44,052 nucleotides of DNA from Candidatus Saccharimonadota bacterium. Its GTDB lineage: Bacteria; Patescibacteriota; Saccharimonadia; Saccharimonadales; Saccharimonadaceae. Each line of letters starts with the position of its first letter. The first letter of the stretch is position 1. Below are positions 10,148-40,990 of this stretch, one piece after another. The translations under genes were made by a program, and so were the position numbers. The stretch lies in NCBI GenBank assembly GCA_017511205.1, contig JAFWLE010000006.1:1-44052 (forward strand), written 5' to 3'. The notes beneath the pieces were generated by a model. That model was not told the DNA's origin. It did not search any database and was given only the letters and a program-made list of their open reading frames with translations.

Positions 10148-10225
10148 CTTCGCGGAGCTCTAGGTAATTCCTATGATTGTAATTTATGGCTAGAAATTAC
10201 CTTTTCGCCCGCCAAGGTTTATGGT
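10148..10225. repeat. Degenerate structured repeat, copy D
   Basis: AAACCTT pairs with a distal AAGGTTT, and AGGTAATT pairs with AATTACCT inside. The order CGGAGCTC, variable stem, TTCGCCC resembles the three better copies at 10930, 32840 and 39945. A T-run follows on the plus strand, so it could also act as a terminator. Membership in the family is tentative. Confidence 0.4.
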
Positions 10226-10498: not shown

Positions 10499-10852
10499 GG
10501 GGCTGAATTCAAGCTTAGACGGGATATTAACAGTTACAAGGCGTACCGATCAAATACCGTAAGTATTAATAAGTGCTAAAAACACGAAAACCGCGCATGT
10601 TTTATACATGCCGGCATATGCCTAATTTTTATAGGCTGGTCTTAGTTTGAGGTTTCGTAGAGCTAAGATTATCATACAACGAGAATAAGGTTATTTAAAC
10701 GGCGAGAAATGACACGAAAATTAGCCATGGTGTCTATTAGTTTCGTTTTCTGCAGCTGATAGAATAAACCAAGACAAAACAGAAGACTATGTGCGTAGAA
10801 TTGTAACCAGGTGGTATTTCGGACCCGGAGGCAGTATCCGGCAGCTCCACCA
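10499..10852 (+). ncRNA. ssrA: Transfer-messenger RNA (tmRNA)
   Basis: tmRNA rescues stalled ribosomes and tags the nascent chain for proteolysis. The 5' end GGGGCTG pairs with CAGCTCC before ACCA at the 3' end, forming the alanyl acceptor stem with encoded CCA. The 5' block AGACGGGAT and the 3' block ATTTCGGAC match the conserved tRNA-like domain of one-piece tmRNAs. The tag frame is at 10575-10625 and encodes AKNTKTAHVLYMPAYA followed by TAA; the stop falls in a GCC/GGC hairpin as in helix 5. The T-loop is GGCAGTA instead of the usual TTC-type loop. A TAGAAT -10 precedes the gene and a terminator follows. Length 354 nt is typical. Confidence 0.95.
10575..10625 (+). other. tmRNA proteolysis-tag reading frame
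   Basis: The resume codon is probably GCT at 10575, giving the 16-residue tag AKNTKTAHVLYMPAYA and TAA at 10623-10625. The tag ends in AYA rather than the common LAA. A hairpin with arms GCATGT/ACATGC lies inside the tag-coding sequence. The resume codon was placed by analogy with E. coli; a shift of one codon cannot be excluded. Confidence 0.7.
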
Positions 10853-10893: not shown

Positions 10894-10929
10894 GTGCTTA
10901 ATTGTTACGTAGTGCATCATACATAATCC

Positions 10930-11030
10930 ATTCATATCTCAGGAGCTCCGCGACACGTGGTAAATAAAATTTTACCACGTCGCTTCGCCCTTGTGGTGGC
11001 ATTATATAGCGAAGTCTTAGTTTGATGAAT
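10930..11030. repeat. Structured interspersed repeat, copy A
   Basis: It contains TCATATCTCAGGAGCTCCGCG, then a hairpin with arms ACGTGGTAAA/TTTACCACGT (10955-10980), then GCTTCGCCC. It is the most diverged of the three clear copies: the second half of the element (the GGCAAAATC hairpin) is degraded to GGCATTATATAGC and the outer arms match only partly (CATCA/TGATG). Confidence 0.7.
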
Positions 11031-11136
11031 TCCTTATTTTACGTTGTTTCGGATGTGTTGCGATCTAAATGTTTTGCTAAACAAAAATTGAAATAAAATT
11101 CACTTCCATTTCAATTTCCATATTATTTTCTTTTGC

Positions 11137-20063: not shown

Positions 20064-20107
20064 TTTGATTCCCTTTTACTTGTATATATTATACCATAGT
20101 TACGCCT

Positions 20108-20133
20108 TTCGATATGAATGAATTATTCAATAA
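20108..20133. repeat. Solitary end of the structured repeat
   Basis: This 26-nt sequence matches the right end of repeat copy C (40054-40079) at 23 of 26 positions (TTCGATATGAAnGAA...ATTCAA). The rest of the element is absent. It lies between the divergent thrS and 20172 promoters. Confidence 0.55.
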
Positions 20134-21836: not shown

Positions 21837-21935
21837 CGGCTCCTACCACGAACGAATCCCTACGGGATTCGCACTCCTCTTAGCAGCATATCATGATAAA
21901 AAATTAAACCCTTACGGGTTTACTTTTTTATCATG
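21837..21935. repeat. Hairpin block downstream of the tRNA-Val(UAC) 3'-end copy
   Basis: CGGCTCCTACCACG (21837-21850) is shared with the tRNA-Val(CAC) locus (35270-35283). It is followed by a GAATCCC/GGGATTC hairpin and then a long imperfect stem, CATGATAAAA...TTTTTATCATG, at 21892-21935. The stem abuts the duplicated tRNA 3' end and looks like its terminator on the minus strand. Confidence 0.55.
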
Positions 21936-21951
21936 GTGGGTTGTGAGGAGC
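21934..21951 (-). repeat. Duplicated 3' end of tRNA-Val(UAC)
   Basis: The 18-nt GCTCCTCACAACCCACCA (minus strand) is identical to the CCA, acceptor and T-stem 3' strand of the intact tRNA at 22056-22132. It lies 122 bp downstream. The match ends in the T-loop, followed by a GCGAGC/GCTCGC hairpin and a T-loop-like TCGAATCC. Confidence 0.8.
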
Positions 21952-22014
21952 GGGGATGTCGCGAGCTTACGCTCGCTCCATTCGAATCCTGGACTCGATC
22001 TCCTCAATATTTAT

Positions 22015-22057
22015 CAAGAATTAAATAAAGACCCTCCGGGTCTTTCTTTAATTCTTG
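22015..22057 (-). terminator. Long hairpin abutting tRNA-Val(UAC)
   Basis: CAAGAATTAAA...AAAGACCC pairs with GGGTCTTT...TTTAATTCTTG, an imperfect stem of about 19 bp with a 3-nt loop. It overlaps the tRNA CCA by two bases. Confidence 0.7.
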
Positions 22058-22132
22058 GTGGGTTGTGAGGAGCTCGAATCCCCGACCTTCTCGGTGTAAA
22101 CGAGACGCTCTAGCCAACTGAGCTAACAACCC
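22056..22132 (-). tRNA. trnV-UAC: tRNA-Val (anticodon UAC)
   Basis: The minus strand folds into a standard cloverleaf: acceptor GGGTTGT/ACAACCC, anticodon stem TCTCG/CGAGA with loop TTTACAC (anticodon TAC), T-loop TTCGAGC, and encoded CCA. A TATAAT lies 9 nt upstream (22142-22147 region). Downstream is a hairpin terminator and a copy of the tRNA 3' end. Confidence 0.96.
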
Positions 22133-30519: not shown

Positions 30520-32715
30520 TTATTCTCCTTTAGCGCAGCTGCAAACCTTTTCGAATGGGAGATCACCTTCGAGACGACCACAGTGCGGGCAACGATCACC
30601 AGATATTACTCCAGAAAAACCGCAAACAGGATCACGGTCAACTGGGTGGTTGACGGAACCATAGCCAACACCTTCATCGTGCATTTTGCGAATCACCGCT
30701 TCGAAAGCTGGTAGATTCTGGGATGGATCGCCATCGAGCTCGATATAAGTAATGTGACCGGCGTTACAGAGTGCGTGATAAGGGGCTTCAATTTCGATTT
30801 TTTCAAAGGCAGAAATCGGGAAATAAACTGGCACATGGAAGGAATTGGTGTAGAATTCGCGATCAGTTACGCCTTTAATCTTGCCGTATTCCTTGCGGTC
30901 AAGTTTAGTGAAGCGACCAGCGATGCCTTCAGCTGGGGTGGCAAGTAGACTGAAGTTTAGATGATATTTTTTACAATAGCTATCACATTTTTCACGCATG
31001 TGACTAACGATGTCGAGCCCAAGATCACGAGCGTCTTCGTCTTCACCATGGTGCTTGCCAACCATAGCAACGAGAGTCTCAGCTAGACCAATAAATCCGA
31101 TAGAAAGTGTACCGTGTTTAATGACGTCACGTAAAGTATCGTTTGGACCAAGTTTTTCTGAACCGAACCAATTCCCTTGTCCCATGAGGAATGGGAAGTT
31201 GCGAACGTGCTGGTTAGCTTGGAATTCGAAACGATCTAAGAGTTCATCTTTAACGAGATCCATTTTCTCATCGAGTTCGTGGTAAAAACCGTCCCAGTCA
31301 GCTTCTTTTCTCTCTTTCAAACAAATACCATGTTTGATACCGATACGAACTAGATTAATCGTCGTAAATGAAAGGTTACCGCGACCCGTAACAATACCAT
31401 CAGATTCTGGGAAAACTGATGAGAATACGCGTGTGCGGCAACCCATGGTAGCGATTTCGGTACGGTAATCACCTTTTTTATAGTATTTGAGGTTGTATGG
31501 AGCATCGATGAAACAGAAGTTCGGGAAAAGGCGTTTGGCAGAAACGGCCATGGATTTCTGGAAGAGATCATAATTAGGATCTTCAGGATTATAGTTGACG
31601 CCTTCTTTAACTTTGAAAATTGAAATTGGAAAGATTGGAGTTTCACCTTTGCCTAAACCATTTTCAGTAGCCTCAAGTAAACATTTTGAAACTAGGCGAC
31701 CAGCTGGGGTAGTATCGGTACCGAAATTAATACTAGTGAATGGCACCTGAGCGCCAGCACGGGAGTGCATAGTGTTGAGGTTGTGAATGAAGCCCTCCAT
31801 GGCTTGGAATGTTTCACGTTCAACATCTTCATTAGAAGTTTCAATGATTTCTTTGGGCCATTTGTCCTTCTTAAGTCTCTTGTCGTCACCGTATTCATAA
31901 TCATCTTTGACGGTGAGACTTAGTTTTTTACCGGTGAATTTGTTGTATTTTTCAAGATTCTTCTTTAAAGCTTTACGGAAGGATTTGTGAACGCCTGGCG
32001 CCATAGCGTAATCGAAATTCGGAATAGATTGACCGCCGTGTTGCTCGTTTTGATTGGCTTGGAGTAAGATAGCCGCAAGCGCACCATAAGAAGCGATCGA
32101 ATTTGGAGTGCGAAGATGACCGTGGCCAGTATTAAAACCACCATTTTCGAACATGCGAAAAGGATCGGACTGGCAGCAAGTCAGAGTGCCGGTGGCGTAA
32201 AAATCAAGATCGTGAATATGAATGTCACCATTATCATGAGCGGCAGCGATGTCTGGTCTTAAAAGTAAAGACTTAGCAAAAACTTTGGAGCCTTCAGCGC
32301 CGAATTGAAGCATTTTACCCATGGCGGAGTTGCCGTCAACATTAGCATTTGAGCGTTTAATATCGGAATCTTCGGAGGCGTCAGCATGAGAAATTGTACG
32401 ATAAATCATCATGAGATCAGATTTCGCATCACGGACACGAGAACGCTCTTGGCGATAACGAATGTAAGCCCTAGCCGTCTTTTTGAAGCTGGACTCCATC
32501 AGAACTTCTTCGACGATGTCCTGAATCTGCTCGACATTAGGAGTACGAGTGGTAATTGTTTCATCGGCACGTTTTAAAACTTTTTCGGTCAGAGCTTTAG
32601 CGCGGTCATACTTAAACTCTTCAGTGGCAAGGCCAGCTTTCGCGATGGCCTCGGTAATTTTATCGGGATCAAATTTGACGATTTTACCATCCCGTTTGAC
32701 GATTCTTTTGAACAT
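30520..32715 (-). CDS. nrdD: Anaerobic ribonucleoside-triphosphate reductase (class III), C-terminus atypical
   Basis: NrdD reduces NTPs to dNTPs under anoxia. An ATP-cone domain (residues 1-95) precedes the catalytic barrel, with CCQ near 200 and the conserved blocks QHGGQSIPNFDYAMAP, GKGETPIFPI and ATMGCRTRV. The end keeps part of the zinc site (VCGF, CPHC), but the chain stops at FEKVCSCAKGE. The usual RRxTGY glycyl-radical loop and helix are missing, and no other frame restores them. I start at the ATG at 32715 after GAAGGAGG rather than 24 nt upstream. The promoter carries two NrdR-like boxes. The missing loop would abolish canonical activity unless supplied separately. Confidence 0.9.
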   Translation of the reverse strand: MFKRIVKRDGKIVKFDPDKITEAIAKAGLATEEFKYDRAKALTEKVLKRADETITTRTPNVEQIQDIVEEVLMESSFKKTARAYIRYRQERSRVRDAKSDLMMIYRTISHADASEDSDIKRSNANVDGNSAMGKMLQFGAEGSKVFAKSLLLRPDIAAAHDNGDIHIHDLDFYATGTLTCCQSDPFRMFENGGFNTGHGHLRTPNSIASYGALAAILLQANQNEQHGGQSIPNFDYAMAPGVHKSFRKALKKNLEKYNKFTGKKLSLTVKDDYEYGDDKRLKKDKWPKEIIETSNEDVERETFQAMEGFIHNLNTMHSRAGAQVPFTSINFGTDTTPAGRLVSKCLLEATENGLGKGETPIFPISIFKVKEGVNYNPEDPNYDLFQKSMAVSAKRLFPNFCFIDAPYNLKYYKKGDYRTEIATMGCRTRVFSSVFPESDGIVTGRGNLSFTTINLVRIGIKHGICLKERKEADWDGFYHELDEKMDLVKDELLDRFEFQANQHVRNFPFLMGQGNWFGSEKLGPNDTLRDVIKHGTLSIGFIGLAETLVAMVGKHHGEDEDARDLGLDIVSHMREKCDSYCKKYHLNFSLLATPAEGIAGRFTKLDRKEYGKIKGVTDREFYTNSFHVPVYFPISAFEKIEIEAPYHALCNAGHITYIELDGDPSQNLPAFEAVIRKMHDEGVGYGSVNHPVDRDPVCGFSGVISGDRCPHCGRLEGDLPFEKVCSCAKGE

Positions 32716-32763
32716 TGATACCTCCTTCATTTTGTTCAAATATTTATGTGTTAAATGTTTCAG

Positions 32764-32839: not shown

Positions 32840-32967
32840 TTGCATAATTTACTACATCTCAGGAGCTTCGCAATTTAATAAATCACTGATTTATTAAATT
32901 GCTCGCCCCTTCGGCGGCAAAATCATAGATTTTGCCTTTATGTCCTGAGATGTAGCAAATTATGCAA
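32840..32967. repeat. Structured interspersed repeat, copy B
   Basis: This 128-bp element has 25-bp near-perfect terminal inverted repeats (TTGCATAATTT then CTACATCTCAGGA). An inner hairpin has arms CAATTTAATAAATCA/TGATTTATTAAATTG, and a CGCC/GGCG stem and a GGCAAAATC/GATTTTGCC hairpin follow. It lies between nrdD and sufBD and has no coding capacity. Confidence 0.85.
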
Positions 32968-32972
32968 TATAA

Positions 32973-33896
32973 TCATCGCAGAAAACCGTTAATAATTTTG
33001 CTTTCGGCTTCTTTTTTGGTGAGGCCGAGAGTCATGAGCTTTTCGATTTGATCGCTAGCGAGTTTGCCGATGGCGGCTTCGTGAATTAATTCAGCGTCTT
33101 TAGTTCTAGCATCGAGGGCTGGAATGGCATGAACTTTGGCTTCGTCCATAATAATCGCATCGCAAGCAGAGTGACCGCGACATTTATTATTTCCTATAAT
33201 CGTAGCTTTAAAAGTTTGCTGAGAAAAATCTTGCGCAATAGAGCGAGAGGCGATATCGGCAGTAGAATCTTGCCCATTTAAATTAACTTCATAGATGCTT
33301 TCGGCGGTTTGGCGGCCATGAGTAAAGAGACGTTCTTTGACAAAAAGTTTAGCATCGTCAGCTAGGTCAGCGACAGTTTTTCGGATAGTAGAATCTACAC
33401 CTTTGATTTGCTCTAGCTCCAATATGGCTTCCGAACCTTTTTCTAGGTGCACCTCAGTGACAGGATTTAAAATTTTGCCACCGTGGCCGGGACCGAAACC
33501 ATAGTGTTTTTCGACATATTTAACTTTGGAATTTTTGCCGACGAAAAATCGGTGCACGCCATTATGCACGGAGTCGGTAGGGCCGCAATTATAGATACCA
33601 CAACCCGCAATGATTGTGACGTCAGAATTTTCGCCGATATGAAAATCATTATAGACAGTTTCTTCGAGGCCAGTAACGCTAATAGCGACTGGAATATGAA
33701 CGGCTTCATTTTGAGTACCTTTCTTAATATAGATATCCAGACCGGAGCTATTCTCTTTTGGTTCTACGTCGATGTTAGCAGTGGATTTTCGACCGACGGA
33801 TTTGCCGTTGACACGGAAATTATAGGCGCCTTCGGGAATCTGAAAATCACCAGAAACTTCGCAAAAAATTTGCTTTTCTTCATCACTAAGCTGCAT
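32973..33896 (-). CDS. SufB/SufD-family Fe-S scaffold protein
   Basis: This 307-residue SufBD-core protein is a right-handed beta-helix with flanking helices. Diagnostic blocks are CRGHSACDAI, IPALDA and HEAAIGK near the C-terminus, followed by LGLTKKEAESKIINGFL. It is shorter than SufB of full SUF operons and resembles the minimal SufB-like (SmsB) forms. The ATG at 33896 overlaps the end of sufC by 11 nt and has GGAGG within sufC, so the two are translationally coupled. No SufS, SufU or SufE is nearby, so the sulfur donor is not evident. Confidence 0.88.
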   Translation of the reverse strand: MQLSDEEKQIFCEVSGDFQIPEGAYNFRVNGKSVGRKSTANIDVEPKENSSGLDIYIKKGTQNEAVHIPVAISVTGLEETVYNDFHIGENSDVTIIAGCGIYNCGPTDSVHNGVHRFFVGKNSKVKYVEKHYGFGPGHGGKILNPVTEVHLEKGSEAILELEQIKGVDSTIRKTVADLADDAKLFVKERLFTHGRQTAESIYEVNLNGQDSTADIASRSIAQDFSQQTFKATIIGNNKCRGHSACDAIIMDEAKVHAIPALDARTKDAELIHEAAIGKLASDQIEKLMTLGLTKKEAESKIINGFLR

Positions 33897-34584
33897 GACG
33901 GCCTCCTGTGATTTCTGGCAGAATTGTGGCCGGAGTACCGGAATTTTTGATCTTACCGTTTTCAAGAATTACGATTCTATCGGCAATGTTTAAAATACGC
34001 TCTTGATGAGAAACGATAATTACGGTGCGATGATCCTTTTTCATTTTTTTAAAAACTTTAGTCAAATTAGTAAAGCTCCAGAGATCAATACCAGCTTCAG
34101 GCTCATCAAAAATGGTGATTTTAGCATGACGAGCAAGTACCGAAGCAAGTTCAATGCGCTTTAATTCTCCGCCGGAAAGCTTATTATTAACTTCTCTTAA
34201 TAAATACCTAGCCGGCTCTAGGCCAACTTCTTTTAAATATTTACCAGCTTCTTTTTCACTAATTAATTCTCCACTAGCAACGTTCAATAAATCGTAAACC
34301 GTGATGCCCTTGAATTTAACTGGTTGTTGAAAAGACAGAGCGAGACCCTTTTTGGCACGGTCGGTGATGCTGAGATTAGTGATATCTTCTTTATCTAAAA
34401 TGATTTGACCGTCAGTGGGTTTTTTCAAGCCCATAATGATACTAGAAAGGGTGGATTTGCCACTGCCGTTAGGGCCGGTGATAACGGTGAGGCCACTTTT
34501 TATTGTAAGAGAAATATGGTCTAGGATTTTTTGCCTAGACCCACCGGTTTTAACTTCATAACTGATATTTTTCAATTCTAACAC
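33886..34584 (-). CDS. sufC: SufC-type Fe-S assembly ATPase
   Basis: This 232-residue ABC ATPase has Walker A GPNGSGKST, signature LSGGE, Walker B ITIFDEPEAGID and an H-loop histidine in VSHQ. The insert around EVNNKLSGGELKRIELA and the neighbouring SufBD gene identify it as SufC, which drives the scaffold. The frame extends upstream to 34662 across a TATAAT. I start at GTG 34584, 7 nt after that hexamer and without Shine-Dalgarno, as the protein then begins with the standard LELKNISYEV. Confidence 0.9.
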   Translation of the reverse strand: MLELKNISYEVKTGGSRQKILDHISLTIKSGLTVITGPNGSGKSTLSSIIMGLKKPTDGQIILDKEDITNLSITDRAKKGLALSFQQPVKFKGITVYDLLNVASGELISEKEAGKYLKEVGLEPARYLLREVNNKLSGGELKRIELASVLARHAKITIFDEPEAGIDLWSFTNLTKVFKKMKKDHRTVIIVSHQERILNIADRIVILENGKIKNSGTPATILPEITGGRHAA

Positions 34585-35188: not shown

Positions 35189-35319
35189 GTCATATTTTTT
35201 GCTAGCGCAAAAAATATTCCCGCGGGGCGTCGCCTCAAAAAATCCCAAACTATGTTTGGGATTTTCACTCGGCTCCTACCGCGTTTGAACCTACGGTTCG
35301 CGCCCTGTAAATCCATTTA

Positions 35320-35355
35320 TAGAAAATACCTAACCAAAAGGTTAGGTATTTTCTA
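35320..35355 (-). terminator. Perfect hairpin abutting tRNA-Val(CAC)
   Basis: TAGAAAATACCTAACC pairs perfectly (16 bp) with its complement around AAAA, directly next to the encoded CCA. It probably terminates or helps process the tRNA transcript. Confidence 0.7.
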
Positions 35356-35432
35356 TGGTGGGGATTACAGGGCTTGAACCTGTGACCTTACGAATGTGAA
35401 TCGTACGCTCTAGCCAGCTGAGCTAAATCCCC
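35356..35432 (-). tRNA. trnV-CAC: tRNA-Val (anticodon CAC)
   Basis: Acceptor GGGGATT/AATCCCC, anticodon stem TACGA/TCGTA with loop TTCACAT (CAC), T-loop TTCAAGC and encoded CCA form a complete cloverleaf. It is divergent from prfA; the palindromic TTATAATTATA between them offers a -10 to both genes. Confidence 0.95.
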
Positions 35433-39265: not shown

Positions 39266-39937
39266 ATGGAACCAACGTTTTTTCAGAAACATCCTCTATT
39301 TAAGGATTTATTAAGTTTGGCATCTTTCATAATTGCCATTATTCTAGGTACCCTTTTTTTGAACACATTTATTTATCGCTCATATAATGTAGTAGGTAGC
39401 AGCATGGAAAACACCTTGCACGAAAACGACCGGGTAATTGTAAACCGAGCAGCGGTTTCGTGGGCACACTTTACAGGGCAAGAGTATGTACCGGAGCGCG
39501 GGCAAGTGATAGTCTTTTTGAACGAAGATGAAGAAAAGGTCGCGGAGTATAAGGCACAGGGAGTGGAACACCCGATGACTTGCGATGTGCCTTCTAATGT
39601 GAGCGATCAGTATATCATTAAGCGTGTGATTGCTTTCCCTGGTGAAAGGGTGGTAGTAAAAGATGGCGAGATGAAAATCTACCCGGATGAAAACTCTACT
39701 GAAGGAATTGTCTATGATTCAGAGTGGCGAAAGTCGGAAGATGATGGGCCAAAAGAACATACTTCAGGAGAGGTAGATATGGTGGTACCAGAGGGAGAGC
39801 TATTTGTGTCGGGTGATAACCGCGAAGGGTCGCATTCGTGGGACTCTAGAAATGGGCTTGGTACGATTCCCTATTGTCGTGTTGTCGGACCAGTAATGAT
39901 GAGGTTGTTCCCGATTGATAAAATTAGAACATTCTAA
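39266..39937 (+). CDS. lepB: Signal peptidase I
   Basis: LepB removes signal peptides from exported proteins. A single N-terminal membrane helix (about 14-36) is followed by the catalytic domain, with Ser in GSSMENTLHENDRV and Lys in YIIKRVIAFPGERV, the Ser-Lys dyad. Conserved SGDNREGSHSWDSR lies near the end. The 223 residues include a charged insert around 150-170. TATAAT lies 8 nt before the ATG and no Shine-Dalgarno is present. Confidence 0.95.
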   Translation: MEPTFFQKHPLFKDLLSLASFIIAIILGTLFLNTFIYRSYNVVGSSMENTLHENDRVIVNRAAVSWAHFTGQEYVPERGQVIVFLNEDEEKVAEYKAQGVEHPMTCDVPSNVSDQYIIKRVIAFPGERVVVKDGEMKIYPDENSTEGIVYDSEWRKSEDDGPKEHTSGEVDMVVPEGELFVSGDNREGSHSWDSRNGLGTIPYCRVVGPVMMRLFPIDKIRTF

Positions 39938-39944
39938 TATGAGC

Positions 39945-40080
39945 ATTGTTGAATAATTCATTATATCTCAGGAGCTCCGCAATGTGGTAAAGAAATTTTA
40001 CCACATTGCTTCGCCCCTTCGGCGGCAAAATCATAGATTTTGCCTTTATGTCCTTCGATATGAACGAAATATTCAACAAT
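39945..40080. repeat. Structured interspersed repeat, copy C
   Basis: Terminal repeats ATTGTTGAATA/TATTCAACAAT differ in sequence from those of copy B but are again complementary to each other. The inner stem is CAATGTGGTAAA/TTTACCACATTG. The block from CGCCCCTTCGGCGG through GGCAAAATC/GATTTTGCC to TTTATGTCC is identical to copy B. It lies between lepB and parB. Confidence 0.85.
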
Positions 40081-40150: not shown

Positions 40151-40990
40151 TCATTTTAGCTTTTTGATAAGGTCTTTTAAAGTGGTTTCGTTCTGGCATT
40201 TGAAGGTCAGGCTACGACCGGTGATTTTGACTGGGATATTATACTTGGCGGAAAGAGCGTTCTCGTCTTTGACGTAACCGCTACGCTTGATGGCGGCGGC
40301 ACTGGATTTTTTCTTGTTCACAGTGAAGTAACGTTCGACTTGACGGGCAGTCCAGCCTTCTTTAGCAATCTTTGGCAAAAGCTTTTTGATGGTCGCTTCG
40401 TCACGAGAAACAAGTGGACGCATGACGCCTTCAGTAAGATGCTCTTTGACCATGAATTTCTTAGCATCATCTGGCAAAGTAAGTAGACGGAGAGTATTGT
40501 GCACGGTTTGCTCGGATTTGCCAACTTTGGCAGCAATGTCTTCGGCGCTGAGATTAAACTGATTCTGCAGCTTAGCATAGGCGGTAGCCAACTCGATAGC
40601 GTTCAAATCTTCACGCTGAGCGTTTTCAATGATGGAAAGCTCTAGGCGGTTTTGCGAATCGAGAGTCCTAATGATGGCTGGGATTTTATCGAGTCCGGCA
40701 ATTTTGGCGGCGCGCCAACGACGCTCGCCGGCGACGATTTTGTACTTGCCGTCTTCTTCGGTGACGACAATTGGCTGAAGCACGCCATGCTCTTTGATGG
40801 AAACTGCTAAGGCTTCAAGAGCACCTTTATCAAAATCACGACGGGGCTGGTTTTCATCTCGTACGATGGCGTCTAGCCTCAACTCTTTCAGTTGGCTAGA
40901 TTTTTTGTCTTCTCTCGCGGTGGGGTCAAACTCCTCGTCGATTAGCTCGGTGGGGATCAGACTTTCAAAACTTCTACCTAAACCTTTCAT
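40151..40990 (-). CDS. parB: Chromosome-partitioning protein ParB
   Basis: ParB is a CTP-dependent clamp that loads at parS and spreads. The N-terminal CTPase domain includes RDENQPRRDF and GERRWRAAKIAG. A central helix-turn-helix (SAEDIAAKVGKSEQTVHNTLRLL) is followed by a short C-terminal dimerisation domain. The 279 residues are typical. Its ATG overlaps the parA stop by 4 nt. No convincing parS (TGTTTCACGTGAAACA-like) was seen in the window. Confidence 0.94.
   Translation of the reverse strand: MKGLGRSFESLIPTELIDEEFDPTAREDKKSSQLKELRLDAIVRDENQPRRDFDKGALEALAVSIKEHGVLQPIVVTEEDGKYKIVAGERRWRAAKIAGLDKIPAIIRTLDSQNRLELSIIENAQREDLNAIELATAYAKLQNQFNLSAEDIAAKVGKSEQTVHNTLRLLTLPDDAKKFMVKEHLTEGVMRPLVSRDEATIKKLLPKIAKEGWTARQVERYFTVNKKKSSAAAIKRSGYVKDENALSAKYNIPVKITGRSLTFKCQNETTLKDLIKKLK

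Follow-up and report, generated by a model that had tools for sequence, protein, structure and literature searches.

The closest described counterparts of the element analysed here are the Rickettsia palindromic elements (RPE; Ogata et al., 2000, 2002). According to PMC10969869, these are ~100–150 bp long, form several families with many copies and occur in frame inside unrelated conserved genes, where they carry a conserved peptide; in R. conorii nearly half of the RPEs lie in genes. Two further types of small repeat offer points of comparison: ERIC, Correia and similar MITEs, and REP sequences, which are associated with RAYT (Y1) transposases.

The present element, found in Saccharibacteria, resembles RPE in being palindromic and multicopy, in occurring in the small genomes of host-dependent bacteria and in lying in frame in conserved genes with a conserved peptide. 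In contrast to the proportion given for R. conorii, only 10 of the 140 retrieved copies were found in a long open frame within a conserved gene. The copy-by-copy renewal of its arms and its orientation along the GC skew were not found reported for RPE in PMC10969869. Sequence kinship with RPE was considered using an exact pattern of the core, which would miss diverged homologues; across 84,980 bacterial and archaeal species this pattern matched Saccharibacteria alone, and almost all of the matching records carry ruminant gut sites in their titles. The exact pattern, with the same blindness to diverged copies, gave no match in viral contigs, and viral carriage was rejected on this basis. The element has in common with ERIC, Correia and similar MITEs a dispersed, mostly intergenic location, a length in the range of 100–200 bp, inverted terminal repeats and non-autonomy (PMC10969869), and differs from these repeats in its GC-skew orientation, its four stems, its repeated in-frame insertions and the lack of an evident target duplication. 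Like REP (PMC3733652, PMC2817692) it places hairpins in intergenic DNA, but it is ~130 bp long as against 20–40 bp, and the Y1 transposase is absent from element-rich genomes. Searches of the open-licence literature yielded nothing on palindromic elements in Saccharibacteria, and an RPE-like palindromic family is apparently unreported in this phylum.

Copies in the window and distribution of the family

The window, the whole stretch of 44,052 nt that was analysed, is one contig (C3) of a 796-kb genome that is 97% complete. The following features were located in it, with bit scores from the covariance model R1.

10924–11059, minus strand: copy A, decayed element (38.7 bits, E 2e-8; fold z −2.1)
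20100–20133, minus strand: solo arm fragment (CCTTTCGATATGAATGAATTATTCAATAA on the plus strand) without a core, between divergent genes (repeat search, sequence)
32840–32967, minus strand (the given strand being the 'sense', peptide-compatible one): copy B, complete element (126 bits; fold z −12.2)
32840–32864, no strand: copy B, left arm of outer stem P1, a near-perfect inverted repeat with 32943–32967
32870–32902, no strand: copy B, inner hairpin H1, AT-rich variant (fold; covaries with other copies)
32904–32916, no strand: copy B, inner hairpin H2, CGCC..GGCG (fold and covariation)
32916–32936, no strand: copy B, inner hairpin H3, GGCAAAATC-ATA-GATTTTGCC (fold and covariation)
32943–32967, no strand: copy B, right arm of outer stem P1, pairing with 32840–32864
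39946–40079, minus strand: copy C, complete element (142 bits; fold z −9.2)
39979–40009, no strand: copy C, inner hairpin H1 (fold)
40012–40044, no strand: copy C, inner hairpins H2 and H3, with the same sequence as those of B

The complete element (130–140 bp) is built of four stems, a long outer stem P1 followed by the hairpins H1, H2 and H3. The arms of P1 are terminal inverted repeats that often carry a recurrent TTGCATAATTCATC-like end, and most intergenic arms have the consensus ATAATTC in common. The arms are the most variable part of the element and the internal hairpins the best conserved; in most of the copies inside genes the arms are quite unlike the usual arm, yet well paired.

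Copies B and C were present as originally predicted, and their single strands fold far better than shuffled sequences; their family scores are those of copies that themselves helped to build R1. Using Pfam, copy B was placed just 3′ of a SufB/D-family gene (32973–33965, minus strand) and upstream of an anaerobic ribonucleotide reductase gene (30520–32739, minus strand), and copy C between convergent genes of the signal peptidase S26 family (39266–39937, plus strand) and the parB family (40151–40990, minus strand). Copy A, located 3′ of the tmRNA gene (10499–10852, plus strand), had also been taken for a clear copy. Its score identifies it as a member of the family, but it is decayed, with H1 intact and both P1 and H3 broken. 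A further, degenerate copy proposed at 10148–10225 was at chance level (9.6 bits and E 2.3 in an unfiltered scan; fold z −1.7). The solo arm, which the original prediction did not list, is probably the remnant of an element.

Two other observations were made in the window. The tmRNA gene gave an Rfam match of 89.6 bits and was missed by ARAGORN. Two tRNA-Val genes have inverted repeats of 35–44 nt (21877–22081 and 35295–35380) overlapping or next to their 3′ ends, and these look as if the tRNA end had been copied in reverse just downstream.

A DNA search combined with model R1 gave 21 strong copies, B and C among them, and the decayed copy A in the 796-kb genome, and the covariance model detected the element in 38 of the 174 species of the genus; the family is therefore not confined to the copies on which the prediction was based. 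Positive species contain from one to at least 19 copies, many having one and several at least 19, a lower bound set by the 19 candidates scored per genome. No other genus was positive among 156 genera sampled from the order with the covariance model, under stricter filters that lose weak matches, and no Rfam family matched the element. The copies are dispersed singly, with no cassette arrays of the kind formed by integron attC sites, the substrates of integron integrases, which have variable, self-complementary arms and conserved boxes. The reading that best explains the observations as a whole, and is probably correct, is that of a short mobile palindrome restricted to a single genus of Saccharibacteria.

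One copy in this genome (L050:1528–1624) has an extra hairpin of ~65 bases within the H3 loop, seen at no other examined locus. Other palindromes were also encountered in the genus. A second family was identified at L159:804–919 (minus strand), inside ORF 437–1744 and in frame in a methyltransferase gene. The gene in L159 bears both this family and the present element, and the second family occupies the position at which L073 carries the present element; matches occur in 52 of the 174 species, with three in this genome. A third structured family (L229:288–388; 50 of the 174 species, two matches in this genome) occupies in G175 a spacer that holds the present element in the closely related G174. 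At a site that the present element occupies in G164, the genomes G174, G175 and G079 have a hairpin-rich element of 206 bp (L230:234–439), partial copies of which are found at other examined loci.

Pairing in paralogous and orthologous copies

Covariation between paralogues was examined in 20 copies of this genome over 47 pairs. Standard pairs made up 97.4% of the pair cells, and 24 of the 47 pairs had changes on both sides. Two-sided cells numbered 96 compared with 25.5 expected from shuffles, a value reached by 0 of 500 shuffles, and pairing fell to ~37% when the partner was slid by one column as a control. These values confirm that the stems vary between copies while staying self-complementary. 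G-T pairs were rare over the retrieved copies (0.4–3.4% per helix), and at three pairs of H1 the G-C and A-T alternatives occurred at 12:7, 11:9 and 14:6 with zero wobble intermediates.

Orthologous copies were compared 13 times, giving 649 pair comparisons, with the better-folding copy as reference and with flanks that were mostly 90–99% identical. Here 53 pairs were altered in one partner only, of which 34 were broken and 19 became G-T, against one that was compensated. The change per site was 4.5% in the stems, 7.0% in the unpaired parts and 6.8% in the flanks. At this low divergence only ~1 double change would be expected by chance, so slow compensation may still occur in resident copies. 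The one-sided changes indicate that resident copies drift, and therefore that the pairing seen between paralogues is made or restored as copies arise; both patterns were observed directly, and pairing would be renewed at copying, not maintained in place. The original prediction had invoked selection for, or mechanistic maintenance of, base pairing. Maintenance was supported in the form of renewal at copying, while selection on resident copies was not, and the covariation expected in related genomes was obtained between paralogues but not between orthologues.

Insertion sites, orientation and host genes

The site of copy B is empty in the relatives G180, G060 and G072, and the sites of L033, L037, L038, L040, L070, L132 and L133 are likewise without the element in relatives. 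As the same sites lack the element in related species, the element is mobile, and it is very probably a mobile element of the RPE type. The original prediction had proposed comparing occupied and empty sites, and several of those that hold the element in this genome or in a relative proved to be empty elsewhere. Its suggestion of a non-autonomous mobile element agrees with these differences between relatives, with the patchy distribution and with the lack of a coding partner in the element. TA abuts both ends of copy B, and no clear or consistent target-site duplication was seen across the sites compared.

Traces of the arms were sought at 15 sites in element-free relatives, and 13 gave no significant match, so that at these the arms were rejected as pre-existing target sequence. 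At two in-gene sites one arm resembled the element-free site of the relative, with 0 of 100 shuffles as good for L126 against L178 and 1 of 100 for L075 against L189, which would fit arms derived from the target. In L186 a single arm-like stretch stands alone at the site of L066.

The orientation of the element was analysed in three genomes. The sense strand was the strand of negative GC skew in 36 of 43 copies (P 9e-6), with GC skew over 20-kb stretches being partly driven by genes, while the orientations of the flanking genes were even (13/11/10/9 for the same copies). A single orientation was found in 23 of the 28 contigs with at least two listed copies, compared with 10.4 expected, copies on one contig being not fully independent. 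Orientation is presumed to be linked to the direction of replication, as read from the GC skew. Many copies lie at gene ends, some of them between convergent genes; a role as terminator was rejected, as the orientation of the element is unrelated to genes.

The host genes of the in-gene copies, identified using Pfam and NCBIfam, encode the GTPase YchF, valine-tRNA ligase (ValS), dihydrouridine synthase (Dus), TruB and a methyltransferase weakly related to TIGR01177. The copies are always inserted in one orientation and one frame, the coding strand corresponding to the minus strand of the copies in the window, and they add a recurring peptide of about HKGKISDFAAEGAKQCDKISDLSH (HKGKI-DFAAEGAK-CDKI). 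In homologous genes free of the insert the reading frame continues on both sides of the insertion point. Translation of the peptide within the host proteins is predicted from the open frames. Of 116 copies tested, 55 have an open core frame, which does not exceed the figure for one antisense frame, and there is therefore no sign of selection on coding ability. Because its core can offer one stop-free frame, the element would at times be tolerated by essential genes as an in-frame insert.

Multiplication of the element

The search for an enzyme covered the flanking genes, Y1_Tnp and reverse transcriptase, and gave no cognate enzyme, transposase or source gene. A parent gene beside single-copy elements was rejected, as the flanks differ between species and none resembles a shared mobile gene. 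Y1_Tnp (PF01797) is present in only 8 of the 174 genomes of the genus and absent from G000 and from the element-rich G079, G157, G174, G126 and G078, with a fragment only in G175. Reverse transcriptase domains (PF00078) occur in 98 of the 174 species, often several per genome. Reverse transcriptase was rejected as the mover, as many of these genomes are element-free; PF00078 is also missing in the element-rich G078 (77% complete) and, among the matches listed, in G157.

The element is likely to be a small selfish palindrome, RPE-like and residing mostly in gene-end and intergenic DNA. Its copying may, tentatively, be templated by its own hairpins. Resident copies would be idle; when an active element is copied its complementarity would be restored, as a folded single strand could let one arm template the other. 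The single strand is perhaps exposed at the replication fork, and more so on one strand. A doubtful extension is that the element needs no transposase of its own and increases in number through the replication fork, the folded strand being copied with freshly matched arms, either because one arm templates the other or because the target flank is copied back. If true, fork copying would give both strand-biased insertions and many perfect stems.

Two other readings are each possible but unlikely. The element could be a classical MITE that descends from a DNA transposon and relies for its movement on a DDE transposase, supplied in trans and recognising the ends of P1. The inverted terminal arms with their recurrent TTGCATAATTCATC-like end, the dispersed copies, their presence or absence between relatives and the TA at both ends of copy B are consistent with this, but the arms, the expected target of such a transposase, are the most variable part and in most in-gene copies quite different, the best conserved part is the internal hairpins, and no consistent target duplication was seen. 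Alternatively, fold-back copying of the target flank during insertion could generate the arms, giving each copy its own target-derived inverted repeat. This is suggested by the well-paired but unusual arms of most in-gene copies, by the matches of L126 and L075 to element-free sites and by the lone arm-like stretch in L186, and is opposed by the 13 sites without a significant trace of either arm and by the ATAATTC consensus common to most intergenic arms.

Transposition in the IS200/IS605 group proceeds through single strands and is expected to yield an orientation linked to GC skew. Both the hairpins and the strand bias would thus be explained if the element were of the REP/IS200 type and moved by a Y1 (HUH) transposase, but the near absence of Y1_Tnp, above all from element-rich genomes, disfavours this reading, which is regarded as highly improbable. 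A structured regulatory RNA or terminator, with pairing selected at each site, is highly improbable. It would account for the covariation between copies and for the many copies at gene ends and between convergent genes, and is contradicted by the single compensated pair among orthologues, the copies inside coding genes, the independence of orientation from genes, the lack of an Rfam match and the rarity of G-T pairs. The last three points likewise disfavour the RNA motif offered in the original prediction, and its option of a nucleoid or recombination site is conceivable but lacks support.

Covariation between paralogues combined with decay between orthologues makes it possible to tell selected structure from structure that the copying mechanism produces, and calls for caution in covariation-based discovery of RNAs when the sequences are repeats. 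That a palindromic element behaves like RPE in a distant phylum whose genomes are reduced points to a recurrent outcome in host-dependent bacteria, and to such elements as suppliers of new protein segments to essential genes.
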